Shown: positions 6,127-25,494 of the stretch, in pieces
How the letters are laid out: the number at the start of each line of letters is the position of its first letter
Numbering within the stretch: position 1 is the first letter of the stretch
Origin: Gluconacetobacter tumulicola
GTDB taxonomy: Bacteria > Pseudomonadota > Alphaproteobacteria > Acetobacterales > Acetobacteraceae
NCBI RefSeq assembly: GCF_014174215.1
Contig: NZ_JABEQL010000023.1
Span: forward strand, 1 to 61,672
DNA: 61,672 nt
Reading direction: 5' to 3'
Notes under the pieces: model-generated
What the model was told of the DNA's origin: nothing
Databases searched by the model: none
Seen by the model: the letters and a program-made list of their open reading frames with translations, nothing else
Position numbers and translations under genes: made by a program

Positions 6127-6158
6127 GAAGATGCGGGTCGTATTCAGAGGAGGCCGTT

Positions 6159-6776: not shown

Positions 6777-6801
6777 TCTGATGGCCGTACAACGCGAATG
6801 C

Positions 6802-8793: not shown

Positions 8794-8922
8794 CCGTCCG
8801 TATCCTTCTCGATCGGACTCTACTTTTAAATGGTTACATTTCCGGGGGGCACGTCACGTCGAGCGCGCGATTTCGGCCCGGACAGATGGAGTGGTGCGGG
8901 CTTGCGGATGGATCTGGTGCAT

Positions 8923-10382: not shown

Positions 10383-10432
10383 AACGATATCCTTCCCGTT
10401 TTCAGCCAAATTCATCGTCGTATTTCGCCGGC

Positions 10433-11221
10433 CTATAACGTAAAAGCTGCCCGGAATCGTTCGAGCGCCTTCTCGCTGTCCTCCGATGCCCAGGCTTCCA
10501 GACCGATCGTCCCACCATAGCCGAGCCGACCCAGTTCGCGCGCGATCGCCGGGTAATTGATTTCTCCGGTTCCCGGTTCGCAGCGTCCCGGCACGTCGGC
10601 GACCTGTATTTCCCCGATATAGGGCAATGCTTCCCGAAGCAGGCCGATCAGGTTCCCCTCCCCGATCTGGGCGTGATACAGATCGAGCATCAGGCGACAA
10701 CCGGCTCGGCCCACGCTTCTGACAAGGGCCAGACAATCTTTCGCCTTGCCGAACGGCACGCCGGGATGGTCCACCGCTGCGTTCAGGTTTTCAAGGACAA
10801 AAACCACGTCGTTCGCTTCACCGAGATCGGCGAGCCGATTGAGAGTGTCACGGGCCCTGATCCACATTTCCCCGGTTTCGCCCCAACACGGGGTGACAGG
10901 AAGGCCCTGCGCGTTCAGCCCTGTTCCATGCAGGTTCAGACGGGGAATACCCAGACGTCTGGCGACTGGGATCGAGCGTGCGGCGGTCGCCAGAAGTTCT
11001 TCGGTGCCGGCCTCGTCGGCAAGACGCCCGTGGATGTAGCCGGTCATCGAGGAGAATGTCGCACCGGTACCGGCAAGCGCATCTATGTCATGCCGTGTCC
11101 AATCCCAGATCTCGACCATGAAGCCCAACGCATCGATCCGGCGCACACGCTCGACGAAAGACAGTTCCTGGAAAAGCATTTCCGCGCAGGCGGCCAACGA
11201 AAACGAAGGTATCGATGTCAT
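10433..11221 (-). CDS. Hydroxypyruvate isomerase-like TIM-barrel protein
   Basis: A 262-residue sugar-phosphate isomerase/epimerase-type TIM barrel (AP endonuclease 2 fold). Metal/substrate segments are visible: VFVLENLN (Glu ligand), LMLDLYHAQIGEGN (Asp/His) and the Hyi-type IQVADVPGRCEPGTGEINY, then GLEAW. Hyi converts hydroxypyruvate to tartronate semialdehyde. Within an inositol operon a role as inosose epimerase/isomerase is also conceivable. The ATG at 11221 is preferred over an upstream start because the barrel begins at once (MTSIPSFSLAACAEMLF) and a GAAGG site lies 10 bp upstream. Confidence 0.8.
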   Translation of the reverse strand: MTSIPSFSLAACAEMLFQELSFVERVRRIDALGFMVEIWDWTRHDIDALAGTGATFSSMTGYIHGRLADEAGTEELLATAARSIPVARRLGIPRLNLHGTGLNAQGLPVTPCWGETGEMWIRARDTLNRLADLGEANDVVFVLENLNAAVDHPGVPFGKAKDCLALVRSVGRAGCRLMLDLYHAQIGEGNLIGLLREALPYIGEIQVADVPGRCEPGTGEINYPAIARELGRLGYGGTIGLEAWASEDSEKALERFRAAFTL

Positions 11222-11341
11222 GGCGTATAAACCTTCATACATACATGAACGGACGGGACGGTCCGGATTTTGCCTCGTCAGAAAAATCCTGAAGCAAAGC
11301 CGACACACGGCATCGTAATGCGAGCGATCCTGTAGCGGAGA

Positions 11342-11506
11342 CTACAGGCGCGGCGCATACCCTTTGAGGATGGCGGGCACACGCGTTTGCATCGCCATCC
11401 TGTCTGGTTCCCGATACTGAATGTCAGCGGCGGTGGCGTCGACCATTCGTCTCGCGTCTGTCGGATGGAGGAGCGGATGATCGGGACCATTCTTTCCGTT
11501 TCTCAT
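11342..11506 (-). CDS. Possible small protein (54 residues) between iolB and the isomerase gene
   Basis: An ATG at 11506 opens a 54-codon frame (MRNGKNGPDHPLLHP ... ILKGYAPRL) in the 320-bp gap of the iol operon. Its composition looks protein-like, with balanced charges and ATAADIQYREPDRMAMQ in the middle. No ribosome site stands out and I recognise no family. The stop codon sits in the arm of a hairpin (CCTGTAG / CTACAGG, 11329-11348). It may be a real small gene or the leftover C-terminus of a deleted operon member. Confidence 0.35.
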   Translation of the reverse strand: MRNGKNGPDHPLLHPTDARRMVDATAADIQYREPDRMAMQTRVPAILKGYAPRL

Positions 11507-11540
11507 CAGCGAGTCCGAACGGTTCCGGGCATAATCGCTC

Positions 11541-12341
11541 TCAATAAGGCAAATGCGCCTGATCGGGGTCCATCGAGAATTTCCATTCCCGACGAGGTCC
11601 GCCCATCACATTCAGGTAATAGAGATCGAAGCCGTGCGGAGCGCCAACGGGGTGGTATCCTCGTGGAACGAGAACGACATCATGGTTTGCGATCGCCATG
11701 GTTTCGTCCAGCGAGCCATCCTTGGTGTAGACGCGCTGGAGCGCAAAGCCGCTGCCGCGTTTGAGCCGGTGATAATAGGTTTCCTCAAGGTAGGTTTCAT
11801 GAGGAAAGTCGTCCGTATCGTGCTTGTGCGGAGGATAGCTCGACCAGTGTCCGCCCGGCGTTATGACCTCGACGACGAGCAGCGTTTCCCCCGGGGCGGT
11901 GTCGGGGAGAATATTGCGGATGAAACGCTGGTTCGTTCCCGTTCCGCGCGAGATTTCTCCAACCTCTTCGGGCAGTATGGCGCGGGCTGGGAATTTCCCG
12001 GTGGCGGGCGACCGGCACACGGCGAGTTCGATCGGTGTTTCAGCCACGACGCTCCATGCGCTGCCTGGCGGCAGATAAACAGACCATGGGAGACCATCGA
12101 AGGGGCTCATCCGTTCCCCCATGAGACCGAAATTCTGCCCTGCGCCGCTGATGCGTGCCTTGCCGCTTATCAGAACGAGGCAGGCTTCCATTCCTTCCGT
12201 AGCGCCTTCGGTTGTCTCGTTTTCCTCAAGCGAACGCACCTCGAAATCGATGAATTTCCATCCAGCACTTTCGGGAGTCACGGTTACGATCCGCTTGAGG
12301 TCATCTCGTGGGTACGGATGAACAAGAAGGTTCGATGTCAT
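11541..12341 (-). CDS. iolB: 5-deoxy-glucuronate isomerase
   Basis: IolB isomerises 5-deoxy-D-glucuronate to 2-deoxy-5-keto-D-gluconate in myo-inositol breakdown. The 266-residue length is normal. It is a bicupin with the metal-site segment SSYPPHKHDTDD followed by ETYLEETYYHRL, and the family-typical VLVPRGYHPVGAPHGFDLYYLNVM and closing MDPDQAHLPY. Its ATG overlaps the iolE stop by 4 bases, so the two are translationally coupled. Order in the operon is iolC-iolD-iolE-iolB. Confidence 0.95.
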   Translation of the reverse strand: MTSNLLVHPYPRDDLKRIVTVTPESAGWKFIDFEVRSLEENETTEGATEGMEACLVLISGKARISGAGQNFGLMGERMSPFDGLPWSVYLPPGSAWSVVAETPIELAVCRSPATGKFPARAILPEEVGEISRGTGTNQRFIRNILPDTAPGETLLVVEVITPGGHWSSYPPHKHDTDDFPHETYLEETYYHRLKRGSGFALQRVYTKDGSLDETMAIANHDVVLVPRGYHPVGAPHGFDLYYLNVMGGPRREWKFSMDPDQAHLPY

Positions 12342-13225
12342 TGCCTGTGTCCTGTCTGAATTAAGACATCATGAAGGTAATTTCGTCCCATACGGGCGTA
12401 CAGGAGCGGCTGGGCCAGATCTGGGTCCTGCTCGGCTTCGAGCACGATCCAACCGGAATACTCCGGCAGTTCGCGCATGATTCGTGCAAAATCGATGCAC
12501 CCGTCCCCCGGCATGGTGAATACGCCGGAAAGCACGGCGCGCAGAAAGCTGTAATCGGCCAGATCCGCCTGCGCCCGCTTCAGCGGCCGGACATCCTTTC
12601 CGTGCAGATGGCCGATGCGTCCCGCATAACAGCGCGCGAGTTCCGCCGGGTCGGAGCCACCCCACAAAGCATGCCCCGCATCGAGCAGAAGATTCACGGA
12701 CTCGCCCGTGCTGTCCATCAACCTTGCGATATCCGCCCGATCCTGCACGATCGTTCCCATGTGATGGTGGTACACCAGCGCGATGCCATTGTCCTGAAGG
12801 TATGTGCCGAATGCCGTCAGACGTTCCGCGAAATGACGCCATTCCCAATCGTCGAGAACGGGACGCGTCGACAAAGGCGCGTTGATATCGCCATGGATGG
12901 CGTTGGATGTCTCGCAGACGATGCAGACGGTGCATCCCATGCCCTTGAGAAGGGCGAGGCGTGGCTGGAAATCTTCGATCTCCTTCTCCACGCTGTGAGT
13001 CAGGAGGTTGCAGGACCACCAACCGGATATGAAGTCAAGTCCGTGCGGTTCCAGGGCCGACTTCATGCCATCGACCGTCCGGGGGAACTTGTTTCCAAGT
13101 TCCATTCCTTCGATCCCGGCACGCCTGGCCTGACTTAGACAATCCTGTAGCGACGTTCCCCCGCCGATCGACGGGAGGTCGTCGTTGCTCCAGATGATGG
13201 GATTGGCGCCAATACGAATAGCCAT
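12338..13225 (-). CDS. iolE: myo-inosose-2 dehydratase
   Basis: IolE dehydrates 2-keto-myo-inositol to the cyclic trione precursor. The protein (295 residues from the ATG at 13225, MAIRIGANPIIWSNDD) is a TIM barrel with IolE landmarks: ISGWWSCNLL, LVYHHHMGTIVQ, NLLLDAGHALWGG, IGHLHGKDVRP and the GDGCIDF segment near the C-terminus. A GTG at 13237, directly after the iolD stop, would add four residues. I prefer the ATG because the known N-terminus begins there. Confidence 0.94.
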   Translation of the reverse strand: MAIRIGANPIIWSNDDLPSIGGGTSLQDCLSQARRAGIEGMELGNKFPRTVDGMKSALEPHGLDFISGWWSCNLLTHSVEKEIEDFQPRLALLKGMGCTVCIVCETSNAIHGDINAPLSTRPVLDDWEWRHFAERLTAFGTYLQDNGIALVYHHHMGTIVQDRADIARLMDSTGESVNLLLDAGHALWGGSDPAELARCYAGRIGHLHGKDVRPLKRAQADLADYSFLRAVLSGVFTMPGDGCIDFARIMRELPEYSGWIVLEAEQDPDLAQPLLYARMGRNYLHDVLIQTGHRQ

Positions 13226-13237
13226 GATCTTCGACAC

Positions 13238-15091
13238 TTAGTTTGCAAGGCGCTGCACAAGCCGCGCCTTTTCATAGGCTGCGCGCGCAGCATTCACCTG
13301 TTCGCGGGAGGACACTTCCGGCACGGCGACATCCCACCATGCGCTTCCTTCCTTTGTGGCAAGCATGGGATCTGTATCGATCACGATCACGGTCGTGCGA
13401 TCTGCCGAACGCGCCTCGGTGACCGCTGCGGAGAGTTCGGCAAGGCTGGCAACTTTTTTCGCCCGCGCGCCCAGACCGCGGGCAAGCTGCACGAAGTCGA
13501 TCTCGGGAGACTCAACCTGATAGCAGTCTTTCCAGAGATTGTTGAACGATGCGCTCCCGGTGTAATTCTGCAGTCGGTTGATGCAGCCGTAACCATGATT
13601 GTCGAGCAGCACCACGGTCATCCTCAGGCCGAGCGATATGGAAGCGGCGATCTCGGAATTCAGCATGAGGTACGAGCCGTCCCCCAGCATCACGATGACC
13701 TCTCGCTCCGGGTGTGCGAGCTTGACCCCCATTCCACCGGCAAGTTCGTAGCCCATACATGAAAAGCCGTATTCCATGTGATAACCGCCGGGCTGTTCCA
13801 CGCGCCAGTGTTTCTGCAACTCCGCAGGGAGTCCGCCAGCTGCGCAAACCACCGTGTCGGTCGGTTCGGCCACAGCCTGCACAGCACCGATGACCTGTGC
13901 GTCGGTCGGAAGCCCGGAAGTCCCCGGAGCCTGATAGCGCGCGGAAATCTCGTGCCAGGATGCGCGTTCCCGTTCGGCCTTCCCGGTCCATTCCGATCGT
14001 GCCGCCCAGTCACCCAGCGCGTCCGAAAGCGCAGCGAGGGAGATCTTCGCATCCGCGATCAGTGGCACGGAGGCATGTTTGACCGCATCGAAAGGCTGCA
14101 CGTTCAGGGCGAGTATCTTGAGGTCCGGATTCTGGAACAGCCCCCAAGATCCGGTCGTGAAGTCCTGAAGGCGCGTACCGACGGCAATCAGAAGGTCCGT
14201 CTCTTTCGCCATTGCATTCGCCGCCGTGGTTCCACTGACGCCGATCCCTCCCATACCGAGCGAGAACGATGTCGGAATGGCGGAACGACCGGCCTGCGTC
14301 TCGGACACCGGCACCCCTGTTCGGGCACAGAATGACACCAGATCGCCCTCCACCCCGGAATAGAGCGTGCCGCCCCCCGCGACGACCAGCGGCCTGCGCG
14401 ATTGTCTGATCAACGCGATGGCCTCGTCCAGCTCTCGCACATCCGGTGCGAGACGCCGCACACGATGAACACGCTCGGCGAAAAAGCTTTCCGGGTAATC
14501 GAACGCTTCAGACTGCGTATCCTGACAGAGCGACAATGTCGCCGGCCCGCAATCCGCCGGATCGGTCAACACGCGCATGGCCTGCTGGAATGCCGGGATC
14601 AACTGTTCCGGGCGCGTGATGCGATCGAAATAACGTGACACGCTGCGGAAAGCGTCGTTGGCGGTGGATGTACCGTCGGCGAAATTCTCGATCTGTTGCA
14701 GGACGGGGTCGGGAATACGACTGGCGAACACATCGCCCGGAAGCAGGAGGAGCGGCAGCCGATTGACGTATGCCACAGCCGCTCCGGTCACCATGTTCAG
14801 CGCTCCCGGCCCGATGGAACTTGTGCAGACCATCGCCTGCTGCCGACGCGACGCCTTGGCGAAAGCGGTTGCGGCGTGAACCATCCCTTGCTCGTTATGC
14901 GCGCGCAGCGTCGGCAGATAGTCGCGATGCTCGTATAGCGCCTCCCCCAGCCCGGTGACGTTGCCATGTCCGAAAATAGCCCAGACGCCCTTGAAGAACG
15001 GTTCGATTCGTCCTTTGATTTCCGTCTTCTGGGCCATCATGACCCGGACCAGGGCCTGCGACATCGTCAATCGGATCGTTTTCATCGTCAT
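13238..15091 (-). CDS. iolD: 3D-(3,5/4)-trihydroxycyclohexane-1,2-dione hydrolase
   Basis: IolD is a thiamine-diphosphate enzyme that opens the inositol ring, yielding 5-deoxy-glucuronate. It has 617 residues in three acetolactate-synthase-like domains: the N-terminal Pyr domain with RAHNEQGMVHAA (cofactor-activating Glu), a central domain (VVAGGGTLYSG, VGTRLQDF) and a C-terminal PP domain with MLGDGSYLMLNSEI, the GDG-N metal/diphosphate motif. The start follows the iolC stop by 8 bp, with an AGGGATC ribosome site. Length and motif order are normal, so the enzyme appears intact. Confidence 0.95.
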   Translation of the reverse strand: MTMKTIRLTMSQALVRVMMAQKTEIKGRIEPFFKGVWAIFGHGNVTGLGEALYEHRDYLPTLRAHNEQGMVHAATAFAKASRRQQAMVCTSSIGPGALNMVTGAAVAYVNRLPLLLLPGDVFASRIPDPVLQQIENFADGTSTANDAFRSVSRYFDRITRPEQLIPAFQQAMRVLTDPADCGPATLSLCQDTQSEAFDYPESFFAERVHRVRRLAPDVRELDEAIALIRQSRRPLVVAGGGTLYSGVEGDLVSFCARTGVPVSETQAGRSAIPTSFSLGMGGIGVSGTTAANAMAKETDLLIAVGTRLQDFTTGSWGLFQNPDLKILALNVQPFDAVKHASVPLIADAKISLAALSDALGDWAARSEWTGKAERERASWHEISARYQAPGTSGLPTDAQVIGAVQAVAEPTDTVVCAAGGLPAELQKHWRVEQPGGYHMEYGFSCMGYELAGGMGVKLAHPEREVIVMLGDGSYLMLNSEIAASISLGLRMTVVLLDNHGYGCINRLQNYTGSASFNNLWKDCYQVESPEIDFVQLARGLGARAKKVASLAELSAAVTEARSADRTTVIVIDTDPMLATKEGSAWWDVAVPEVSSREQVNAARAAYEKARLVQRLAN

Positions 15092-15098
15092 GATCCCT

Positions 15099-17000
15099 TC
15101 AAGCCGTCTCTGTGATCTTCAGGCCGTTCCAGGCATCCACGAACGTGCGGAAGCGTCTGGCCATTTCCGCCACGGCGCTTTCGTCGTCGATCTCGCCGGC
15201 AAGCCATGCCCGGGCAGGTTGCACGAAGATCGTGCGTCCGATCGCAAAACCCTTGACCCATTTCGTCACCGAAGCCGCCTCGAAGGCGTCGATCAGATCC
15301 TGCATCGGCGCATCGAGGCCAAGGATCATAACGCCCCGACAATGCGGATCGCGCCGCTCGATGACGTCACCTATGGCAAGCCAAGCTTCTGGGTCTTTCT
15401 GACCTTCGAGTTTCCACCAGTCCGGCTTGATTCCGATATCGTAAAGTCGTGAAAGAACCTTTGAAATGGTGTCCCGCCCGAGCGATCCATGTTTGCCTGC
15501 AATGATTTCGATCAGGATTTCCCGCCCTTCCTGTCTGCAGGCATCGTAAGCGCGCGACAGTTCACGTTCCTGACGTTGCTTGAGTTCTTCAGGATCGTCC
15601 GGATGATAGAAGCACAGACACTTGATCGTCTGTTCCGTCGGCCATTCGACCAGATGGGCTCCGAGGCTTCCGCCGCATTCAAACTCCAGCGGACGCGAAC
15701 CTGTCTTCTCGATCGGACGGGCAATCCACAGCCCTTTGTGAGACGCCTCGAACAATGCGTCTTGTCCATAGCGACCGTCCATGAACACGCCGAAGCCTGG
15801 CCGCCCCTGGGCGACGCGCGCTGCGGCTGCGATGGCCAGAGATTTGAACTGGCGGATTTTTTCGAATGGCGCGCCCGCGTCACGGGCGATATCTTCGAGT
15901 TGCAGGCGATGATCGCAAGCCAGCGCCATGATCGGCGTCGCCTGTTCGCAACGTGTCGTGACCCAGTGGAGGTGGTTCAGTTCCCGATCCCGACGCAACT
16001 CCTTATGGGGGCTACCTTCCTTCAGGAAATACTGAAGCTCTTCCCAGCTTGGAATTTCTGAAGAGCAAAGGAGCCGCGAGACGGCAAAGGCACCGCAGGC
16101 ATTGGCGTAGGTGCAGCAGTCGGAGAGCCGCTCGCCCCGCACCCATCCGCGCAGGAAACCGGACATGAAGGCGTCACCGGCCCCCAGCGTGTTGTAGACT
16201 TCGATGGGGAAGCCGCTTCCTTTCACGCCGCCTTCGAGACTTGCGGGAATTTCTCCCTCGAATACAACACAGCCCATCGGCCCCCGCTTGCAGACAATCG
16301 TGCCGTTCGAGATCACCCGGATTGCCCGGATTGCCTCCAGCGTGTCCTCGCTTCCGCCGGCGATGTGCAACTCCTCCTCGGTGCCCACGATCAGATCGCA
16401 ATCCGGAAGAATCTCCGAGAGATGCTTCGTCACTTCCTCGGAACGGACGTAACGTGCCTCGCCATCCCCGATGGCGGCCAGGCCCCAGAGATTTGGGCGA
16501 TAATCGACATCGAAAACGACCTTGTGGCCATGTGCTTTGGCGATCCGCATGGCCTTACGTTGCGCGGCAGCCGAGTGGGGGCGGGAAAAATGGGTTCCGG
16601 TGACGACGATAACTTTCGCGGACGCGATGAAATTCTCGTCGATGTCGTCTTCACACAATGCCGCATCCGCACAGTCTGTACGGTAGAAAATCAGAGGGAA
16701 GCTCTCACGGTCGCGGATTCCCAAAATCGCCAAAGCTGTCAGACGCTGCGGATCGGTGACGATTCCATCGGTCGCCACCCCCTCACGCACCAGTTGCTCG
16801 CGGATGAAACGTCCGAAATGCTCGTCGCCCACCCGCGTGATCAGGCCCGAGCGCAGGCCAAGCCGCGCCGTGCCGATCGCAATGTTCGCCGGACAGCCAC
16901 CGACGGCCTTGCTAAAAGTTGCCATATCCTCGAGACGACCGCCAATCTGCTGGCCATACACATCAATCGAGGAACGCCCTATCGTGATAACGTCAAGCAT
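15099..17000 (-). CDS. iolC: 5-dehydro-2-deoxygluconokinase fused to a DUF2090 aldolase-like domain
   Basis: The first half (to about residue 320) is a PfkB-family kinase that phosphorylates 2-deoxy-5-keto-gluconate. It starts MLDVITIGRSSIDVYG and has VGGCPANIAIGTARLG and the ATP/anion-hole motif YNTLGAGDAFMSGF with its catalytic Asp. The second half (about 325-630) is DUF2090, an aldolase-like TIM barrel (PIMALACDHR, GFGVFMDGRYG, KCLCFYHPDD). Such fusions are thought to supply the IolJ aldolase step, and no separate iolJ is seen. The ATG at 17000 has AAGGA in front; a start at 17057 would run through the operator. First gene of the operon. Confidence 0.93.
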   Translation of the reverse strand: MLDVITIGRSSIDVYGQQIGGRLEDMATFSKAVGGCPANIAIGTARLGLRSGLITRVGDEHFGRFIREQLVREGVATDGIVTDPQRLTALAILGIRDRESFPLIFYRTDCADAALCEDDIDENFIASAKVIVVTGTHFSRPHSAAAQRKAMRIAKAHGHKVVFDVDYRPNLWGLAAIGDGEARYVRSEEVTKHLSEILPDCDLIVGTEEELHIAGGSEDTLEAIRAIRVISNGTIVCKRGPMGCVVFEGEIPASLEGGVKGSGFPIEVYNTLGAGDAFMSGFLRGWVRGERLSDCCTYANACGAFAVSRLLCSSEIPSWEELQYFLKEGSPHKELRRDRELNHLHWVTTRCEQATPIMALACDHRLQLEDIARDAGAPFEKIRQFKSLAIAAAARVAQGRPGFGVFMDGRYGQDALFEASHKGLWIARPIEKTGSRPLEFECGGSLGAHLVEWPTEQTIKCLCFYHPDDPEELKQRQERELSRAYDACRQEGREILIEIIAGKHGSLGRDTISKVLSRLYDIGIKPDWWKLEGQKDPEAWLAIGDVIERRDPHCRGVMILGLDAPMQDLIDAFEAASVTKWVKGFAIGRTIFVQPARAWLAGEIDDESAVAEMARRFRTFVDAWNGLKITETA

Positions 17001-17041: not shown

Positions 17042-17086
17042 GGAATTTATGTTCCATATTATGGCATAAAAAGGAATTACACTTCC
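17042..17086. promoter_or_regulatory. Paired IolR-type operator upstream of iolC
   Basis: Two perfect GGAA-N6-TTCC boxes, at 17042-17055 (spacer TTTATG) and 17073-17086 (spacer TTACAC), start 31 bp apart. The first begins 42 bp before the iolC ATG. GGAA-N6-TTCC is the motif I recall for rhizobial RpiR-type IolR. The same 31-bp pair geometry recurs in front of the regulator gene and the transporter gene. Confidence 0.8.
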
Positions 17087-17283
17087 ACTTCCTGATTTGG
17101 GAATTCGTTCACGCTCTCCCGATTGTGAAAGCGCGGAGTTGTTGCAAACGATGATAAGTATGTCTCAATATATAAGTGAAAACGAAAGTTTTCGCGAAAT
17201 AAATAATGGAAATAACGAAATTACTACAAAATCACATTGCCCCGATCGACGAACGACGTGCCGGTCGGGGCTGGATTACTCGT

Positions 17284-17694
17284 TTAGTGAACCGGTTTTC
17301 CGGCTCCGAGTTCACCTGTCAGAAACTGCGCGCGGCCACGACCGAACGACCAGTGTGCGTCCTGATTTTCCACCACGGACACCATCACGTCCGAGGAGGC
17401 AATTCCACATTCCGCTTCCAGTCTTTCCGTCAAAAGTTTGTAAAAAAGCGCGATCTTCTCTTCACCACGGGGGCGACTGAACATCTGGACCAGAACCACC
17501 TTTTCGGTGCGCGGGATATCAAGCCCGGTATCTTCCACAATGAAGCGAGAAGGTTTGTATTCGCTCACCAACTGGTAGCGATCCCGGCGGGGCACGGAAA
17601 ACGCTTCGAGCATCGCTTCGTGGGCGGCATCCAGCAACGCCTTGATTTCGTCATCCGTGCGGCCCCCGAGCACATGAAAGTGAAGAAGCGGCAT
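17284..17694 (-). CDS. Tautomerase-family protein
   Basis: A 136-residue protein starting MPLLHFHVLGG. Removal of Met would expose Pro1, the catalytic base of the 4-oxalocrotonate tautomerase superfamily. The length fits two fused beta-alpha-beta units, with VVLVQMFSRPRGEEKIALFYK and DVMVSVVENQDAHWSFG typical of the YusQ/YrdN-like subfamily. It lies between iolC and the regulator gene, on the iolC strand, with its own upstream spacer carrying the second operator pair. It may tautomerise an inosose or keto-acid intermediate; that role is inference. Confidence 0.82.
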   Translation of the reverse strand: MPLLHFHVLGGRTDDEIKALLDAAHEAMLEAFSVPRRDRYQLVSEYKPSRFIVEDTGLDIPRTEKVVLVQMFSRPRGEEKIALFYKLLTERLEAECGIASSDVMVSVVENQDAHWSFGRGRAQFLTGELGAGKPVH

Positions 17695-17839
17695 GATTTT
17701 TCGTTTTCACAACACTAAGAACGTATCGTTTCGTCAAAGACTTAACAGGCAGGCCTTCGACCTGATAAGACTATGGGTAGCTAGGAATCTCCTCAAGCCA
17801 ACGCCATTTTCACCGAGAAGGAGGTGACACCCAGGAAAT

Positions 17840-17884
17840 AGAACATAAGTTCCTCTTCCTGTCACCTTAAAGAATTATACTTCC
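17840..17884. promoter_or_regulatory. Paired IolR-type operator in the tautomerase/iolR divergent spacer
   Basis: AGAA-N6-TTCC occurs at 17840-17853 (spacer CATAAG) and 17871-17884 (spacer TTATAC), again 31 bp apart, each with one mismatch to GGAA-N6-TTCC. The spacer (17695-18035) separates the tautomerase gene (minus) from the RpiR-type regulator (plus), so the pair could give both autoregulation and control of the tautomerase. The rest of the spacer is AT-rich, with no other feature seen. Confidence 0.72.
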
Positions 17885-18035
17885 ATAACAATATAATGTT
17901 ATTATCACATTCAGATCATCTCTTTGAACGATCTTACGATGCCGTGACGATTGGTCATATAACCGAAGATCGGGCATTCTGAATTCGCACATACATCGCA
18001 TCGCGCGGCGACGCGACAGTTCTGAGGAGACATCA

Positions 18036-18896
18036 TTGGCGACCGGAAATACAGGCAGATCGCCGCACGCGGGCGAAGACACACACACTGTCACAGACGA
18101 ATACGACGCGTTTCATCAGCAGCTTCGCGCTCGTTACGACGGCCTCCCGCCTCGTCTTCAACAGATTGCGGATTATATTTTGGCCCAGCCGGAAGATATC
18201 GCCCTTGGGACAGTCGGAAGCCTCGCGGCAGGCGCAAAAGTACAGCCATCGTCGGTCGTGCGCTTTGCGCGGACTTTCGATTTCAACGGCTACTCCGAGA
18301 TGCAGGCGCTCTTTCGCAAAAAATTGAAGAGTCGCACCACCCCTTATCGCGATCGCGTCAACTCCCTTCATGCACAGAATGGCGCGCATGTCGGAGCGAT
18401 TACGATTCTGGACGGCTTCTGCCGGGCTGCCAACGAGTCTCTGGATGCTCTTCGCCATATCAACCCCACCAGTCTGGAGCGGGCCATCGGCACGCTGGCG
18501 GCGGCGCGCTGCATCTATATTCTAGGTCTTCGCCGCTCAATGCCGGTCGCGCGTTACATGTCTTATCTTCTGACCAGACTCGAGATCCGCCATCACGTGA
18601 TCGGCCTCGAATCAGGGATGGAGGAGGATACGATGACGACGGCGACATCACGGGATGCCGCCGTCGTCATCAGTTTTACCGACTATGCGCAACGAACGAT
18701 CGAGTTGTGCTCGGCTCTCGAGCGTCGGCGTGTTCAGGTTGTCGCACTGACAGACAGCCCCGCCAGTCCTGTCATTCCTCCGTCCGGCCTTTGGCTGGAG
18801 GTTACAGAGGCGGACTTTAAGGGGTTTCGCTCGAATGCCGCGACGATGGTACTGATCATGGCGCTCGCCACATCCGTCGCCGAACGCCGAAAATAG
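18036..18896 (+). CDS. iolR: RpiR-family transcriptional regulator with SIS domain (inositol regulator)
   Basis: 286 residues. The N-terminal RpiR helix-turn-helix domain (about 25-100) has LPPRLQQIADYILAQPEDIA, GSLAAGAKVQPSSVVRFAR and FNGYSEMQALFRKKL. The C-terminal SIS sugar-phosphate-binding domain (about 130-270) has IYILGLRRSMPVARYM and VVISFTDYAQRTIELC. The start is a TTG at 18036, supported by AGGAG six bases upstream. By analogy to rhizobial IolR it probably represses the iol genes until an inositol-derived phosphate binds the SIS domain. The paired GGAA-N6-TTCC-like sites at three promoters of this island are its likely targets. Confidence 0.85.
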   Translation: MATGNTGRSPHAGEDTHTVTDEYDAFHQQLRARYDGLPPRLQQIADYILAQPEDIALGTVGSLAAGAKVQPSSVVRFARTFDFNGYSEMQALFRKKLKSRTTPYRDRVNSLHAQNGAHVGAITILDGFCRAANESLDALRHINPTSLERAIGTLAAARCIYILGLRRSMPVARYMSYLLTRLEIRHHVIGLESGMEEDTMTTATSRDAAVVISFTDYAQRTIELCSALERRRVQVVALTDSPASPVIPPSGLWLEVTEADFKGFRSNAATMVLIMALATSVAERRK

Positions 18897-18919
18897 GCGC
18901 GAGCGTCCGCCGGTTTTTC
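18897..18919 (+). terminator. Possible weak terminator after iolR
   Basis: Directly after the iolR stop, GGCG and CGCC can form a short stem around an 8-base loop, followed by GG and a T5 run. The stem is short, so this is a low-confidence intrinsic terminator. Confidence 0.3.
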
Positions 18920-18952
18920 TGCCCCTCTACGTGTAACTAGAGCACAATCCGA

Positions 18953-19553
18953 TCAATTTGGTTCATATCCCGCGGCGGCGAAGCAGGCAGCGGCCTGGCT
19001 GTGACAGACATCGTCGATTGCACCGCACACCGCGTCCTGGAGTGCATCGAGGGTTCGGGGGCGCCACTCGTCTGATCCATGCCTTCATCTTGGCGAAGAT
19101 GTTTTCGATAGGGTTGAAGTCGGGACTGTAGGGCGGCAGGAACAGCAGGCGGGCACCGACTGCCTCTACAGCCTCCCGCGCTTCAGCACTCTTGTGTGCC
19201 GGAAGATTATCCAGAATGACGACGTCTCCCGGCGACAGTGTTGGAGCGAGCACCTTGCGAGCATAGGCGGCGAACCATTCGCCGGCCATTGGGCCGTCCA
19301 GCATCATCGGCGCGGTCATGCCGGACAGGCGCAGTCCACCGATGAACGTCGTGGTTTTCCAATGCCCATGGGGCACAGACATCCGACAGCGCGTGCCACG
19401 ACGTGACCGTCCCCGCAGACGGGCCATCTTCGTCGAGACGGCGGTTTCGTCGATGAAGACCAGCCGGGCCGGATCAAGGTCAGGCTGCCTGTCGAACCAG
19501 GCCTCGCGCCGCTCTGCGACGTCGGGCCGTGTCTGCTCGCTGGCGTGCGCCGT
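18953..19553 (-). pseudogene. IS630 transposase, catalytic part, frameshifted near its end
   Basis: Read after the A8 slippage run, this frame gives EAWFDRQPDLDPARLVFIDE (first catalytic Asp), VVILDNLPAHKS (second Asp) and DFNPIENIFAKMKAW (Glu). Shortly afterwards, at about 19070, one extra C in a C-run shifts the frame. The family-like C-terminus TLDALQDAVCGAI...CFAAAGYEPN continues in another frame to the TGA at 18953-18955. The copy is probably inactive. Confidence 0.75.
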
Positions 19554-19902
19554 TTTTTTTAACGGTCATGTCGTGACGGTCAAGGCAGCGCCAGATCGTG
19601 CTCGGCGCGAAGCGGACCCCATGTTCCGTAGCAAGTTTCTCCGCCAGTTCGATAAGGGAAATGTCAGCCCTGGCTTCAATCGCAGCCAGCAGGACGCCCG
19701 ACCAAGCCTCGATCCGATGGGAGCGACGATCGCCACCCTGCCGCAGCGCGTGCTCCCGGCCGCTCGCACGCCATTCCGATACCCACCGGATCACGCTGGA
19801 GGCAGAGACACCAAAGCGCTCGGCAGCCGCCCGGCGGGTCATGCCAGAGGAAACCGCAGCAATGGCTCGCCGCCGCAGATCAGACGATAGGGCTCGGGTC
19901 AT
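19480..19902 (-). CDS. IS630-family transposase, N-terminal ORF
   Basis: 140 residues with a helix-turn-helix (SSGMTRRAAAERFGVSASSV) and a second winged DNA-binding part (STIWRCLDRHDMTVKK). The frame runs into an A8 tract, a usual site of programmed frameshifting in this family, after which the catalytic part is encoded in another frame. The remaining tail (RADTARRRRAARGL) is out-of-frame reading. Confidence 0.82.
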   Translation of the reverse strand: MTRALSSDLRRRAIAAVSSGMTRRAAAERFGVSASSVIRWVSEWRASGREHALRQGGDRRSHRIEAWSGVLLAAIEARADISLIELAEKLATEHGVRFAPSTIWRCLDRHDMTVKKNGARQRADTARRRRAARGLVRQAA

Positions 19903-19997
19903 AATCGCCGGCCTCCATCCATCCCGGCAATCAGGATGAAGCAGATTTCGCCCAATAACGGAATCCTAAAATGACCCAGTTAGGTCAGATTATGCTT

Positions 19998-20504
19998 CAA
20001 ATCCGCCACGGGCATGTTACGGCCTTTCAGCACCTCTCCTGATTACGTACCCGACGTTTTTGGCGAACCGTTTTCGCCTGCGGGTGGATGCATCACCTTC
20101 CTCCCGGCCATTCGCACCTGCCCTCGATCTCCGAGAATCGGTCGCTCTTTTGGTTGTTGGTATGGCAATTTTCGGGCCATTTCGCGAGCCGACATCATTA
20201 TGTTACGAGAGTATCAAAAATGCGCGATTTCAGCAGGTCGAATAACGGAATCTACGTTCTTTTTGTTGCCGAATGCGGGAATATATGTTCTTTTCCTTTT
20301 CAGTCACCGTCCGGCACAGTTGCTGAATTGAGGGATGGGCAGGATGAAAAGATGTGCGATCCGATGATGCCGAGCATTCGCTATCTGCCTGTGCATGACA
20401 GCAACGGACGACATCGTCGCTGTTCGGCCCATGCTCGATCGTTCCCTAGTTGAACCGACCTTGGGAGAGACAAGCCTCGTGCCTGCTTTCCGGAGCCAAA
20501 TGCA
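19998..20504. other. Leader region of the transporter/dehydrogenase unit
   Basis: This is a 500-bp region between the IS630 right end and the transporter ATG. It contains the third operator pair (20247-20291). Small open frames exist but none has a ribosome site or recognisable family. GGAG lies 9 bp before the transporter start at 20505. Confidence 0.5.
20247..20291. promoter_or_regulatory. Paired IolR-type operator upstream of the transporter/dehydrogenase unit
   Basis: GGAA-N6-TTCT boxes lie at 20247-20260 (spacer TCTACG) and 20278-20291 (spacer TATATG), starting 31 bp apart, the same distance as at the other two promoters. Each box has one mismatch to GGAA-N6-TTCC. The pair is about 215 bp before the transporter ATG and links the transporter and FAD dehydrogenase genes to the inositol regulon. 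Confidence 0.75.
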
Positions 20505-21977
20505 ATGAAATCGATCTCCGACATTATCGTGGTAAAATCCGAGAGACACGATGTCGCCTACGTGTTGAGGATATGCGCCGTCGCAGCACTGGGCGGCATT
20601 CTCTTCGGCTATGACACCTCCGTTATTTCCGGCGCGATCGGGCCATTACGCGATTACTTCCATCTTTCCGCCGCTGAAACCGGATGGGCCGTCTCGAACG
20701 TCGTCGTTGGATGTATATTCGGAGCACTTGCGTCAGGCTGGCTCGCCCATCATTTCGGGCGCCGCCTGACCCTCTTTTTCTGTGCCCTTCTTTTTTCGGC
20801 CCAGTCCGTGGGCGCGGCACTTGCACCGACATTTTTCTGGTTCGTAATTTTCCGCCTGATCGGCGGCGTCGCTGTGGGCGTCGCTTCGGCAGTGTCACCG
20901 ATGTATATGTCGGAAGTTTCTCCAAAAGACATGCGCGGTCGTGCGCTGAGTATGGAACAGTTCGCCATCGTCTTCGGGCAGTTGGTGGTTTTCATCGTGA
21001 ACTATCTCATCGCACGCAGCGCGACAGAGACGTGGCTGCAAACGCTGGGATGGCGCTGGATGGTGGGATCGGAAATCGTCCCGTGCATCCTGTTCTGCGC
21101 CACGATCTTCCTCATTCCCGAGTCACCGCGCTGGCACATGACGATAGGCCGGGAGGAAGACGCAAAGAAAACACTGACGCGCATATCCAACGAGCAACAT
21201 GCGCTCACGCTCATGTCGGAAATTCGGGAATCCCTCAGTGCGGAAGGCACCCAGACGAATTTTAGCCTTCGGCGCCTGTTCGCCGATCGCAATGCGCGCT
21301 GGATCGTTTTTATTGGCGCGATGATCGCTGCGTTGCAGCAGGTCACAGGCATCAACGTCATGATGTATTATGCGCCGATGGTTCTAAAAAATGCCGGAAG
21401 CGATATGCGCGGCGCGCTTTTCCAGACGATCTGGATCGGTCTCGCACTTCTGATCGGCAGCGTTCTCGGCGCGTGGATCGTGGACCGCAAGGGTCGTCGT
21501 TTCCTGATGCAATTCGGCTCCATCGGGATGATCCTGAGCCTGCTCGTCGTTTCATGGGCGCTCTATATGCAGACGACCGGGCCACTCGCACTGAGCGGTA
21601 TGCTGTTCTTCATGCTGATGTTCGGCCTTTCGTGGGGACCTGTCGCCTGGATCCTTATCTCTGAAATCTTCCCCAACCGCTTCCGCGCCATCGGCATGAG
21701 CATCGCCGTCGCATCGAACTGGGTCGCCAATTTTCTGGTAGCACAGGGCTTCCCGATGATCAGCGAAAATGAATGGCTGAAAAGCCACTTCCACGGTGCG
21801 TTCTCAATGTGGCTCTTTGCGGCTTTCGGTGTCTTCGCCATGTGGTTCGTGCTCCGCTTCGTGCCGGAAACGAAAGGTATCTCCCTCGAAAAAATCGAGA
21901 CCACAATGATGGGTGCGCCCCTTCGGCAGCAGGCGCAGCCGGTCATCACACCTCAAACCGCTGCCAAACCCCGGTAA
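20505..21977 (+). CDS. MFS sugar-porter family transporter (probable inositol transporter)
   Basis: A 490-residue, 12-helix inner-membrane transporter of the sugar-porter family. Signature motifs are GGILFGYDTSVISGAIG in helix 1, HHFGRRL, PMYMSEVSPKDMRGRA, the LIPESPRW motif after helix 6, QQVTGINVMMYYAP in helix 7, DRKGRR and FVPETKG at the C-terminus. Bacterial IolT and many hexose transporters share these. The operator pair upstream and the iol genes nearby point to inositol or inosose as substrate. It is followed 20 bp later by the dehydrogenase small subunit, so the four genes probably form one transcript. Confidence 0.88.
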   Translation: MKSISDIIVVKSERHDVAYVLRICAVAALGGILFGYDTSVISGAIGPLRDYFHLSAAETGWAVSNVVVGCIFGALASGWLAHHFGRRLTLFFCALLFSAQSVGAALAPTFFWFVIFRLIGGVAVGVASAVSPMYMSEVSPKDMRGRALSMEQFAIVFGQLVVFIVNYLIARSATETWLQTLGWRWMVGSEIVPCILFCATIFLIPESPRWHMTIGREEDAKKTLTRISNEQHALTLMSEIRESLSAEGTQTNFSLRRLFADRNARWIVFIGAMIAALQQVTGINVMMYYAPMVLKNAGSDMRGALFQTIWIGLALLIGSVLGAWIVDRKGRRFLMQFGSIGMILSLLVVSWALYMQTTGPLALSGMLFFMLMFGLSWGPVAWILISEIFPNRFRAIGMSIAVASNWVANFLVAQGFPMISENEWLKSHFHGAFSMWLFAAFGVFAMWFVLRFVPETKGISLEKIETTMMGAPLRQQAQPVITPQTAAKPR

Positions 21978-21997
21978 CGACCCAGGCGAGCACGGAC

Positions 21998-22444
21998 ATG
22001 AGCGAAGACGATCTGGATCGGGAGTTTCTGCGCCTCTCCCGCATCCTGACCAAACGAGAAGTAATCGACCCCACGACAAGTGCGCGTTGCCGGCGCGCAC
22101 TTCTGGCAGCAGATCCCGCGATAATCGATCCGCTGCATAACCTGATTACGGTCACAACACGCGAAAACTTCACGAACGTGGATGAGTTCGAGAAATTTTC
22201 GCAACGACATCCCGAATTACGCCTGACGGCGCTTGCCATCATTCGTGCGTGGTATCTTGGTTATGCCGGAACTCCGGCGCCTCTCGACCAGGGAGATAAC
22301 GCGCAGTTCGTATCATACGAACGCGCCCTGATGTTCGAACCTACAAGGGATGCGACGGTCATTCCGACATATGCCCGAGGGGGCACCGACTATTGGCGGG
22401 AGCCACCTAATGGCATCGCGCACGATAAAGAGAGTTCCACTTGA
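21998..22444 (+). CDS. Small subunit of membrane-bound FAD dehydrogenase (FAD-SLDH family)
   Basis: A 148-residue protein of the family represented by the small subunit of acetic acid bacterial D-sorbitol dehydrogenase. Visible landmarks are DREFLRLSRILTKRE near the start, LTALAIIRAWYLGY in the middle and, near the end, SYERALMFEPTRDATVIPTY with TDYWREPP. In this family it supports folding or export of the FAD subunit. No clear Tat signal is seen at this start, unlike many homologues, so export may depend on a start further upstream or on the large subunit. Its stop overlaps the large-subunit ATG (TGATG). Confidence 0.82.
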   Translation: MSEDDLDREFLRLSRILTKREVIDPTTSARCRRALLAADPAIIDPLHNLITVTTRENFTNVDEFEKFSQRHPELRLTALAIIRAWYLGYAGTPAPLDQGDNAQFVSYERALMFEPTRDATVIPTYARGGTDYWREPPNGIAHDKESST

Positions 22445-24033
22445 TGACGACCCACTACGATGCCGATGTGATCATTGTCGGCTCCGGCGTGATTGGCAGC
22501 AATATGGCGCATGTCCTCGCCACGCAGGGTAAATCCGTCATTCTTCTCGAGGCGGGCGTATGGATTCCGCGCTGGAAGATCGTCGAGAATTTCCGCACCT
22601 CTCCACGCAAGATAAACAGAAACGACCCCTATCCAAGCCAGCCATGGGCGCCGAACTCCTATTCGCCGGGTTACGTCGAGAATACAGGCTCGTTCTTGTT
22701 TCGCCCCGGAATGCTGCGACTTGTGGGAGGAACAACGTGGCATTGGGGTGGGGCGACATGGCGCTTCCTTCCCAACGACATGAAGCTGAAAACACTCTAT
22801 GGCGTTGGTCGCGACTGGCCCATCTCCTATGACGATCTGGAACCATGGTATGCTCAGGCCGAGTATCGCCTGGGCGTGTCGGGCGCGGACGATCAGGACC
22901 AGTCAGGACAGCACGGCGCCCCCTACCCGCCTCGTTCGACTCCATATCCCGTCAAAGCCGAGGCACAGACGTATTATTTCCGGCGCCTCAAGGAGCGGAT
23001 CGGGGCTGAGGGCTACGAGTTTCTCCATGAACCTCATGTCCGGACAAACCAGCCGTGGGACGGTCGTCCTGCCTGCTCCGGAAACAACAACTGTATGCCG
23101 GTCTGCCCGATCGGCGCGCTTTACTCCGGGGATGTCCATGCCCGACATGCCGAGAAAGCGGGATGCCGGGTGCTGACGGACTCGACGGTGTTTCAGATAG
23201 AAAAGGGCGCGAAGGGCCTTATTGAAGCGGTGCATTGTCGCAGTTCGAAAGGCGTCGAGACCCGTCTTAAGGCACGAACATTCGTTCTTGCCTGCAATGG
23301 TCTAGAGATTCCCAAGCTCATGCTGGTCTCGGATGTCGGCAATTCCTCCGATCTCGTCGGACGGAACCTTATGGATCATACAGGGATCGGGTTGCAGTTC
23401 ATTGCCGACGAACCTCTCTGGCCCGGCCGTGGGCCAATCCAGCAGGGAGGTATCTTCAACTGGAGAGACGGTCCGTTTCGCGCCCGTCATGCGGCCATCA
23501 AACATGCGATCAACAACGCCGTTCCCAATCAGGAAGTGGCCAGAATTCTCATAGACCGGGGTGTCGTCGGGTCAAAACTCGATCACGATATCCGCCATAT
23601 GGCCGCGCGCTGGGTGGAATTTTCGACCACGTTCGAGATGCTGCCGTATTCCGGCAATCGCATCACCCCCTCAACGACACGCAAGGACGCTCTGGGCATT
23701 CCGACAATGGTCGTTCATTACGATACCGACGACTACATCGCCGCCGGCGCGGCAAAAGCAAAAGAGGATTTTGTCAGATTTGTGAAAATCATGAACGGTA
23801 CCATCATCGATGACAATACCGGCTGGCAAAACCGGGATCATTTGATGGGTACGGTCATCATGGGTGACGACCCCGCACATTCCGTGGTCACGCATGAGGG
23901 GCGCTGCTGGGACCACCCCAATCTTTTCATAGCGTCCACCGGCGTCATCCCAGCCTCAGGCGTCGTCAACCCGACACTGGCTGCTCTGGCAATCGGGCTG
24001 CGCACGGCCGATATCATCGCACGGGAGACCTGA
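22444..24033 (+). CDS. GMC-family FAD dehydrogenase, large subunit (candidate inositol dehydrogenase)
   Basis: The 529-residue catalytic subunit of a membrane-bound, cytochrome-linked polyol dehydrogenase. It has the FAD-binding motif VGSGVIGSNMA at the N-terminus, GTTWHWGG, a CSGNNNCMPVC segment whose three cysteines match the 3Fe-4S site of bacterial FAD glucose/sorbitol dehydrogenases, and the GMC C-terminal part with MGTVIMG and STGVIPASGVVNPTLA. ATG 22444 overlaps the small-subunit stop. Relatives oxidise sorbitol, gluconate, fructose or glucose in the periplasm. Membership of the iol regulon suggests inositol oxidation here, which is inference. Confidence 0.88.
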   Translation: MTTHYDADVIIVGSGVIGSNMAHVLATQGKSVILLEAGVWIPRWKIVENFRTSPRKINRNDPYPSQPWAPNSYSPGYVENTGSFLFRPGMLRLVGGTTWHWGGATWRFLPNDMKLKTLYGVGRDWPISYDDLEPWYAQAEYRLGVSGADDQDQSGQHGAPYPPRSTPYPVKAEAQTYYFRRLKERIGAEGYEFLHEPHVRTNQPWDGRPACSGNNNCMPVCPIGALYSGDVHARHAEKAGCRVLTDSTVFQIEKGAKGLIEAVHCRSSKGVETRLKARTFVLACNGLEIPKLMLVSDVGNSSDLVGRNLMDHTGIGLQFIADEPLWPGRGPIQQGGIFNWRDGPFRARHAAIKHAINNAVPNQEVARILIDRGVVGSKLDHDIRHMAARWVEFSTTFEMLPYSGNRITPSTTRKDALGIPTMVVHYDTDDYIAAGAAKAKEDFVRFVKIMNGTIIDDNTGWQNRDHLMGTVIMGDDPAHSVVTHEGRCWDHPNLFIASTGVIPASGVVNPTLAALAIGLRTADIIARET

Positions 24034-24036
24034 GAG

Positions 24037-25494
24037 ATGAAACGGCTTCTCATTGCGACGATACTTCTCGCCGCCTGTCGGCCCTGTACCGATGCACGCG
24101 CCGCGGATTCAGTGATCGCACGAGGCGCTTATGTGGCGCGCATGGCGGACTGCGCCGCATGTCACATGGGTAATGACGGCACGCCGTTCGGCGGTGGCCA
24201 TGTCATCGAATCTCCGTTGGGAAGCATTGTCGCCCCCAACATCACGCCATCCCGGCAATTCGGCATCGGGAACTGGACGGAAGCGCAGTTCGCACGTGCC
24301 GTGCGCAGGGGGCTATCACCGGATGGCCATCTTTATCCCGCCATGCCCTACCCTGCCTATGCCGGCCTGAGCGATGAGGATATTCACGCACTCTATGTCT
24401 ATCTGAAATGGTCGATCGTGCCTGTCGAGCACGGGCCGAGCGTCGAAACGGCGCTTCCCTTCCCCTTCAATCTCCGCACACTGATGGTGGGATGGAACGC
24501 GCTTTACGCGCGAGGCAAGCCCATGAAGCACGCCGATACGGCCTCCGGCGGCTCGAAGCGCGGAGAATATCTCGTGACCGTCACAGGCCACTGCGGAAGC
24601 TGCCACACACCACGCAATATTCTTTTGGGAGAGGATCAGTCGCGTCAGTTGGCCGGAGCATCTGTCGGCGGCTGGTTCGCGCCCAATATCACCTCCGACC
24701 CGATAAGCGGGATCGGCGGATGGAGCGAGGATGAACTGGTCATCTATTTTCGCACCGGCGCCGTGGTTGGCAAAAGCCACGCGGCGGGCGGTATGGCGGA
24801 TGCCATCGAACACGGACTGAGCCATCTTGACGACGACGATCTGCACGCTATCGCCCGACATCTCAAAAATGTCCCACCCATTCGTGACGCCAATACCACA
24901 CAACCGGCCTACGGCGTTGCATCGGCACGCCCCGCCCCGCCCGAACCTGTCGATTTGGGTGTACGCACACCCGACAGTCTTACCGATGCGACCGATACTG
25001 ACGGAGCGCGCCTTTATACGGCCGCATGTGCGGCCTGCCATCAAGCCAATGGCGAGGGAACCGCAGATCAGTTCTATCCTTCGCTTTACGCCAACACTGC
25101 GACCGGTGGCCCAAACCCGCAAAATCTGGTCATGGCTATTGTAAAAGGCGTTCGACGCTCCACACATAGCGGTTTCGCATCAATGCCGTCTTTTGAGCAT
25201 GAATTGACTGACGATCAGATTGCCGCGGTGTCCAACTATGTTCTGAACAGGTTCGGCAACGCATCCCTTTCAGTGAGCGCCTCGGATGTCTCTGCGATCA
25301 AGGCCGGCGGAGAAAAGCCGTTACTGCTTCGTCTGATGGGGCGTCTCGACATAGCCGCAATGGCCGGAGCATTGGGCTTTGGCGGGCTTGCGGGAGGCGC
25401 TGCGATCCTGCGCCGGAAGGAGCGCATAAAAGCACAATTCGCCCCTTCTCCCGAGCATCTGCCGGAGCAGGGCGAGCACCTGACGCCACGATGA
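24037..25494 (+). CDS. Tri-haem cytochrome c subunit of the membrane dehydrogenase
   Basis: 485 residues with an N-terminal export signal and three CxxCH haem sites: CAACH (about 39-43), CGSCH (186-190) and CAACH (331-335). A hydrophobic C-terminal helix (IAAMAGALGFGGLAGGAAI) followed by RRKER anchors it in the cytoplasmic membrane. This is the standard electron-transfer subunit that passes electrons from the FAD/3Fe-4S subunit to ubiquinone in acetic acid bacteria. It begins 3 bp after the large-subunit stop. A Tn3-type terminal repeat starts 2 bp beyond its stop codon. Confidence 0.92.
   Translation: MKRLLIATILLAACRPCTDARAADSVIARGAYVARMADCAACHMGNDGTPFGGGHVIESPLGSIVAPNITPSRQFGIGNWTEAQFARAVRRGLSPDGHLYPAMPYPAYAGLSDEDIHALYVYLKWSIVPVEHGPSVETALPFPFNLRTLMVGWNALYARGKPMKHADTASGGSKRGEYLVTVTGHCGSCHTPRNILLGEDQSRQLAGASVGGWFAPNITSDPISGIGGWSEDELVIYFRTGAVVGKSHAAGGMADAIEHGLSHLDDDDLHAIARHLKNVPPIRDANTTQPAYGVASARPAPPEPVDLGVRTPDSLTDATDTDGARLYTAACAACHQANGEGTADQFYPSLYANTATGGPNPQNLVMAIVKGVRRSTHSGFASMPSFEHELTDDQIAAVSNYVLNRFGNASLSVSASDVSAIKAGGEKPLLLRLMGRLDIAAMAGALGFGGLAGGAAILRRKERIKAQFAPSPEHLPEQGEHLTPR

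Follow-up and report, generated by a model that had tools for sequence, protein, structure and literature searches.

Paired IolR-type boxes 30 or 31 bp apart at inositol promoters of Gluconacetobacter tumulicola and other Alphaproteobacteria

Introduction

The single motif GGAA-N6-TTCC of the alphaproteobacterial inositol regulator IolR has long been known (PMC2597717). In Caulobacter crescentus, according to the same paper, the iol promoters are derepressed when iolR is deleted, and iolC expression rises when one of the two such sites in its promoter is mutated; a figure legend there marks promoters with more than one motif by a single arrow. For Sinorhizobium meliloti, IolR is presented as a repressor whose proposed inducer is a phosphate from the pathway (PMC8877191). 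Here we examine a stretch of 61,672 nucleotides from Gluconacetobacter tumulicola (contig NZ_JABEQL010000023.1, the window from here on), in which boxes of this type stand in pairs at three promoters of an inositol island that also encodes an RpiR-type regulator, called IolR below. The island shares with the Caulobacter and Sinorhizobium systems the regulator type, the palindrome and the targets (iolC and inositol transport), and with the published Caulobacter iolC promoter the presence of two motif copies. It differs in that the copies are 31 bp apart, compared to 59 bp in Caulobacter, and in that one pair precedes a major facilitator superfamily (MFS) transporter and an FAD-SLDH-type dehydrogenase, not an ABC transporter.

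Crystallised RpiR proteins are reported to be tetramers in which the effector sits where the two dimers meet (PMC12713135). The same source describes two sites of Escherichia coli MurR at murQP/murR that lie 17 bp apart over -35/-10, and proposes that one tetramer bridges them, spanning 47 bp. We take this spacing from that paper alone, because a direct search of the E. coli K-12 sequence found no MurR palindromes. The pairs in the window have the same 17-bp separation (two 14-bp boxes plus the spacer make 45 bp), and homologous pairs have 16 or 17 bp. The register of a TGAC element described below suggests a placement over the core promoter, to which a promoter scan lent little support. MurR has another effector and another pathway, whereas three copies in one genome and an alternation of 30 and 31 bp across the class are seen with the IolR pairs. 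Pseudomonas RccR provides the best structural matches to IolR (8ju9 and 8k3b, E about 4e-14, template modelling (TM) score about 0.5), and its palindromes also vary by one base (28 bp and one of 29 bp); there, however, the variation lies inside a single palindrome, and the two aceE sites are 68 bp apart (PMC5489143).

In the literature searched, by title and start of abstract, we found no fixed 30/31-bp IolR pair; the string GGAA-N6-TTCC occurred in one paper. This fits the suggestion of a preliminary description of this DNA that the pair spacing may be undescribed in acetic acid bacteria, within a coverage outside which the main IolR paper (Kohler 2011) falls. Neither the motif nor the regulator class nor the MurR precedent is new. 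What appears to be new is the 30/31-bp pair as a widespread IolR operator, of which a prior description is possible.

Results and Discussion

The preliminary description had placed RGAA-N6-TTCY boxes at 17042/17073, 17840/17871 and 20247/20278, with the members of each pair 31 bp apart from start to start. All six boxes are present at these positions (Table 1), and the distance measures 31 bp in each of the three pairs, leaving a 17-bp spacer (N17). Pair 1 belongs to iolC, pair 2 lies in the interval between a tautomerase gene and iolR, and pair 3 lies 5' of the transporter and dehydrogenase genes. A search of the whole genome (G000, 4.29 Mb) for two exact boxes separated by 3 to 33 bp returned three places, namely these pairs, all N17; the reversed pattern returned none. 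Allowing up to two mismatches, we obtained 12 N17 places against 4 in the reversed control, and by eye none except the three exact ones is credible as an operator. The corresponding N16 search gave 8 places against 3, with none in the iol island. Since only three exact pairs exist genome-wide, the regulon would, as far as pairs show, consist of three promoters (iolCDEB; tautomerase/iolR; MFS transporter plus FAD-SLDH-type dehydrogenase). Single boxes, even unpaired, are in excess over the shuffled window: 19 were counted, against a mean of 3.28 in 100 shuffles (standard deviation 1.91, maximum 8). We can reject chance as the origin of the pairs, since a single spacer length is common to all three exact pairs of the genome and since the N16 and N18 pairs counted as controls in the family (below) never stand beside a detected IolR. 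The boxes of relatives follow RGAAY-N4-RTTCY, and two of the six window boxes deviate at the inner R. Elsewhere in the window (46669-46697), the boxes GGAACGATCATTCC and GGAATGATCGTTCC lie 15 bp apart and together form one long inverted repeat.

For comparison across the class, a named genome collection was scanned with an IolC alignment. We took the best 80 of 575 loci, a choice that skews this set towards close IolC relatives (15 are Microvirga); a scan of the collection with IolR as the query found no relative. The following counts for named promoters refer to these 80 loci unless stated otherwise. Spacings of 14-80 bp were compared in the 400 bp before iolC, and a pair with at least 15 of 16 matches was called strong. 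Strong pairs are 30 bp apart in 36 promoters (14 of them Microvirga), 31 bp in 7 and 29 bp in one. The null expectation is about 0.007 promoters per spacing; it comes from first-order resampling rather than from an exact dinucleotide shuffle, and the counts ignore common descent. Any of these three spacings is found in 44 of the 80 promoters (15 Microvirga, 29 others). The only other strong pairs have spacings of 56-59 bp (12 counts, 11 from Microvirga) and involve a third box. Perfect pairs at 31 bp number six (Swaminathania, three Asaia, one Microvirga and strain AT-5844), and two occur at 57 bp. Lowering the threshold to 14 matches gives 30 bp in 40/80 and 31 bp in 9/80, with at most 8/80 at any other spacing. 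In the remaining sequence of the same loci, outside the stretch before iolC, 30 bp is the sole outlier at this lower threshold (21 pairs, mean 3.4, standard deviation 3.1). Strong pairs there average 0.23 per spacing, with 23 (3), 29 (2), 30 (3) and 120 bp (2) standing out, and all three pairs at 30 bp contain TTGAC. As a separate observation, eleven Microvirga promoters (L160, L162, L165-L169, L173, L175, L176 and L179) carry a further box 57-59 bp 5' of the 30/31-bp pair; the published Caulobacter motifs have a spacing of 59 bp.

A further class-wide sample comprised 240 genomes, 16 with IolC including the genome of the window. Among its 16 loci besides the window, six have a 15/16 pair at 29-31 bp and ten have none. 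Four of the pairs stand just before iolC (30 bp in L139, L140 and L141, 29 bp in L142) and two about 1 kb before it (29 bp in L144, 30 bp in L150); L138, L142 and L144 have other spacings too. When pairs with identical cores were merged across the named loci and those of the other genomes, 54 distinct pairs before iolC remained, excluding the window (39 at 30 bp, 14 at 31 bp and one at 29 bp), and thinning at 85% left 41 of the 53 pairs at 30 or 31 bp.

Within the Acetobacteraceae we analysed 299 genomes, of which 48 encode an IolR homologue at E<=1e-30. The 400 bp 5' of each iol gene were scanned in 49 regions that surround the IolR genes and measure at most 20 kb, and the stretch upstream of iolC was readable in 36 of them. 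Besides the window, 12 of the 36 have an exact 31-bp pair before iolC (L116, L117, L119-L123, L125, L126, L129, L132 and L133), and five have a 30-bp pair with one box a letter off (L127, L128, L090, L102 and L103). Across the 299 genomes exact N17 pairs occur at 18 places in 15 genomes, 15 of the 18 at iol loci (13 genomes); exact N16 and N18 pairs occur at 6 and 4 places, and the reversed patterns gave 5 (N17), 3 (N16) and 1 (N18). By coordinates, none of the N16 or N18 places in these genomes adjoins an IolR found at E<=1e-30. Of the 13 genomes whose iol locus holds an exact pair, twelve have a single one there; the window, with three, is the exception. Outside the iol loci, an unlinked second N17 pair (31 bp) stands about 60 bp 5' of a xylose-isomerase-like gene (L250, 4966-5010; G021 contig 1), and the remaining two N17 places (G310, judged from its reading-frame list, and G288 contig 8) are taken as chance. 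A pair of the transporter type recurs in L117 (15/16 at 31 bp) and, by eye, in L116 (31 bp, both boxes a letter off); no such pair was found at the other MFS genes scanned in the family regions. In L117 an exact double box with a 36-bp spacing precedes the tautomerase gene; we discount it as a probable chance match, because its cores are GC-rich and it starts 3 bp after the iolB match. The iol locus of L095 (G161, 5882-16926) looks broken, with fragmented matches for iolC, transporter and cytochrome and an IolR matched only in its C-terminal half.

Inside the genus, iolC occurs in the genome of the window and in just 2 of 13 others, G004 and G012, whose pairs are 30 bp apart with one box a letter off. 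The IolR of the window is closer to that of genomes from other genera (L116, L117) than to that of G004 and G012. This distribution and this kinship suggest that the inositol island may have moved between genera.

The preliminary description had read 31 bp as a fixed rule. What survives is a non-random spacing near three helical turns in homologous loci (29-31 bp); exactly 31 bp does not hold, since 36 of the 44 strong-pair promoters have 30 bp, as have G004 and G012, and since Gluconobacter and G082 depart much further (about 155 and 52 bp). We placed the spacings on a tree of 46 IolR proteins, with identical sequences merged, seven doubtful or partial loci dropped, and each locus labelled by its best 28-33 bp pair anywhere in the locus. 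The labels change 5 times, compared to 13.6 times when shuffled, on a tree that carries a long-branch warning. On this tree the 31-bp state arises more than once; it is carried by the group of the window, Asaia and Swaminathania, by L129, by Roseomonas-like genomes and by one Microvirga. We therefore reject 31 bp as a strict rule: 30 bp is commoner, and the labels need these five changes.

The spacers had been described as different in sequence, which needs a correction: read towards the gene, all three share a TG[AC]C at spacer position 7 (Table 1), a feature noticed post hoc. In the homologous pairs, merged as above, the element takes a characteristic register. At 30 bp, TGAC stands at spacer position 5 in 23 of 39 pairs and at position 7 in one, and is missing from 15 (14 of them Microvirga). 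Of the 14 pairs at 31 bp, three have it at position 6 and seven at position 7; another two carry a first copy at position 2 and, judged by eye, one more at 7, and the last two lack it. In the single 29-bp pair it stands at position 4. If TGAC belongs to the -35 element, box 2 would lie over the -35/-10 spacer and the -10 element.

The regulator itself matches two Pfam families (positions in Table 1), HTH_6 (PF01418, 47.6 bits, cut-off 28.3) and SIS (PF01380, 61.7 bits, cut-off 25); among the NCBIfam RpiR models, none reaches its cut-off on IolR. The AlphaFold2 monomer model has a mean predicted local distance difference test (pLDDT) score of 89.1. Foldseek returned RccR, NanR and a NanR-DNA complex as whole-chain matches (TM about 0.5), followed by SIS domains including MurR. 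Domains and fold agree with the earlier assignment of the gene at 18036 to the RpiR type. Binding as a dimer of dimers is plausible for this protein, and the RpiR family offers a precedent in print, MurR (PMC12713135). As in alphaproteobacterial IolR regulons, iolR adjoins iol genes, and GGAA-N6-TTCC-type boxes precede iolC. Its earlier connection to the boxes gains weight within the family, where 14 of the 15 genomes with an exact N17 pair encode an IolR homologue, compared to 48 of the 299 overall; the link takes the form of co-occurrence. A same-genus genome that lacks iolC (G001) encodes an orphan IolR of about 64% identity (L118, 9834-10640), with no exact boxes in the 20 kb around it and no box of 7 or 8 matches within 540 bp 5'.

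We propose that each pair probably constitutes one composite IolR operator, gripped by one tetramer over the core promoter. Directly supported are the boxes, the preference for 30/31 bp at iol promoters, the TGAC register, the fold family of the regulator and the limit to three pairs; binding, bridging, repression, promoter position and inducer we infer. Two 14-bp palindromes would present their centres 30 or 31 bp apart, about three helical turns, with a -35-like TG[AC]C between them and the downstream box reaching into the -10 region. As long as inducer is absent, a single IolR tetramer, made of two dimers joined via their SIS domains, would hold the two palindromes from nearly the same side of the helix and so cover the core promoter. 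A phosphorylated intermediate of the inositol pathway would then release IolR.

Several observations weigh against this proposal. A pair of at least 15/16 matches at 29-31 bp before iolC is absent from 19 of the 36 readable family regions, and no strong pair at these spacings was found in 36 of the 80 named promoters; by eye, several of the latter have coding-like upstream sequence, and others have one full box and a half-site around TTGAC. Of the 15 perfect named pairs at 30 bp, 14 are Microvirga, so that the remaining 30-bp pairs, rhizobial and other, are mostly imperfect, with one box a letter off and usually TTTC as the right half of box 2. Two exact boxes stand about 155 bp apart in Gluconobacter (L157, L158), and other distances occur in L124 (G082, 52 bp), L088 (53 bp), L103 (51 bp) and L105 (44 bp), L088 and L103 having a spacing of 30 or 31 bp in addition. 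In the Caulobacter iolC promoter, mutation of the downstream motif is reported to have no effect in complex medium (PMC2597717). A consensus promoter scan (E. coli-type, of little help) found nothing at pair 1, one promoter overlapping pair 2 (minus strand) and one at pair 3 on the opposite strand only; matches to the -10 element are poor. The boxes of pair 3 lie 258 and 227 bp 5' of the annotated transporter start, and a long leader or a missed start is therefore needed. Finally, the link between IolR and the pairs is weak among the named loci, where the stored flanks (at most 6 kb) contain a homologue in 36 of the 44 loci that have a strong pair and in 26 of the 36 that lack one.

The most serious rival explains the spacing by the promoter: independent IolR dimers would occupy the two boxes, and RNA polymerase would set the 30 or 31 bp, with one box required immediately 5' of the -35 element and its partner across the -35/-10 spacer. 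The shared position 7 in all three window spacers speaks for this idea, and so does the place of TGAC relative to box 2, which it precedes by 12 bp in 23 of the 24 distinct pairs at 30 bp where it occurs and by 11-12 bp in 12 of the 14 31-bp pairs (those that have it, the second copy being counted in two). Relative to box 1, however, TGAC moves from position 5 to 6 or 7 while the distance between the boxes changes by only 1 bp, and independent dimers should allow the distal box a wider variation than 29-31 bp. Moreover, the 15 distinct 30-bp pairs without TGAC, 14 of them Microvirga, keep their 30 bp, which is not decisive, since the Microvirga -35 element may be elsewhere. Because Microvirga retains 30 bp without TGAC, and because TGAC shifts by one or two positions while the box distance moves by one, we consider the geometry of the protein, rather than that of the promoter, the likelier main constraint on spacing and regard control by polymerase alone as unlikely, though to be taken seriously.

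An extension of the composite operator, which we offer as speculation and rate slightly lower still, is that IolR acts as a molecular ruler. The dimers of its tetramer would hold sites 30-31 bp apart in a geometry common to Alphaproteobacteria and perhaps to other RpiR regulators such as MurR. The inducer at the dimer-dimer interface would break this register rather than weaken the grip on each palindrome, and shifts from 30 to 31 bp would track retuned tetramers.

Looping, in which tetramers would link the separate promoters (at 17.0, 17.8 and 20.2 kb) and the pairs would merely raise occupancy, is very improbable. It has been considered for SpNanR, RpiR proteins crystallise as tetramers (PMC12713135), and the three pairs of the window fall within 3.3 kb; however, looping between exact pairs is not the shared function, because 12 of the 13 family genomes have one pair at the iol locus, and an IS630-like element separates pairs 2 and 3. 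No more credible is a regulator other than the one encoded at 18036, for although binding by that product is deduced, G001 has a related IolR without iolC or nearby exact boxes and the named flanks discriminate poorly, the co-occurrence in family genomes and Caulobacter genetics, which link IolR to this module and repression to a site that was mutated (PMC2597717), argue for IolR.

Table 1. Boxes, spacer elements and genes of the inositol island (coordinates in the window)
Feature	Coordinates	Strand	Basis
IolR-type box GGAATTTATGTTCC, gene-proximal member of the iolC pair (pair 1)	17042..17055	no strand	pattern match and homologous pairs
IolR-type box GGAATTACACTTCC, distal member of the iolC pair (pair 1)	17073..17086	no strand	pattern match
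IolR-type box AGAACATAAGTTCC, pair 2	17840..17853	no strand	pattern match
IolR-type box AGAATTATACTTCC, pair 2	17871..17884	no strand	pattern match
IolR-type box GGAATCTACGTTCT, distal member of pair 3	20247..20260	no strand	pattern match
IolR-type box GGAATATATGTTCT, proximal member of pair 3	20278..20291	no strand	pattern match
TGCC, spacer position 7 read towards iolC, register of TGAC in 31-bp relatives (putatively -35-like)	17063..17066	-	
TGAC, spacer position 7 in the direction of the tautomerase gene, like the iolC promoters of Asaia/Swaminathania	17861..17864	-	
TGCC, spacer position 7 read towards the transporter gene (putatively -35-like)	20267..20270	+	
iolC with a fused DUF2090 (kinase/aldolase type), at the head of the iolCDEB run	15099..17000	-	
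Tautomerase gene, between iolC and iolR	17284..17694	-	Pfam Tautomerase_2
iolR, RpiR-type regulator (HTH_6 residues 28-96, SIS 154-279)	18036..18896	+	Pfam
Sugar-porter MFS transporter	20505..21977	+	
FAD-SLDH-type small subunit (start codon not fixed)	21995..22444	+	PF12318, E 2.6e-35
GMC-type FAD dehydrogenase, large subunit	22441..24033	+	
Cytochrome c subunit of the dehydrogenase	24037..25494	+	

On the minus strand, the fused iolC is followed by iolD, iolE and iolB and then by genes for a hydroxypyruvate-isomerase-like protein and a Gfo/Idh/MocA oxidoreductase. The regulator gene is divergent from iolC, and the tautomerase gene sits between them. Asaia is a member of the Acetobacteraceae; in Asaia and similar relatives one pair serves the intergenic region between iolR and iolC. 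In the window this interval contains the tautomerase gene, pair 2 retains the TGAC register of the relatives' iolC pair, and iolC has its own pair 1; from this arrangement pair 1 appears to be the newer pair. Read on the minus strand, pair 2 has the order of the iolC type (TGAC, then box) and faces the tautomerase gene. The start of iolR lies 152-196 bp from pair 2 on the opposite side, and the earlier claim that this pair also controls iolR's own gene is therefore uncertain.

Since the unit behind pair 3 combines a sugar-porter MFS protein, an FAD-SLDH small subunit, a GMC large subunit and a cytochrome c, we read it as a candidate for transport plus membrane-bound polyol oxidation. The three-subunit dehydrogenase (21995-25494), which stands with its transporter behind an IolR-type pair, may act as a membrane-bound oxidase for inositol or a polyol, regulated by inositol. 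Between iolR and this unit, at about 18960-19900, two reading frames with matches to DDE_3 and HTH_Tnp_IS630 make up an IS630-like transposase.

Conclusions

In many Alphaproteobacteria, including plant-associated genera, a well-known single motif appears to act as a paired unit of fixed distance. This gives a sharp prediction of how RpiR repressors use their tetramers, for a family in which full-length structures on DNA were, according to PMC12713135, absent before the recent SpNanR work. The search for inositol regulons also becomes sharper, since the pattern box-N16/17-box has a far higher specificity than one box by itself. Regulatable expression systems are sought for acetic acid bacteria (PMC8102297), and the paired operator is a compact candidate for an inducible promoter in these organisms.

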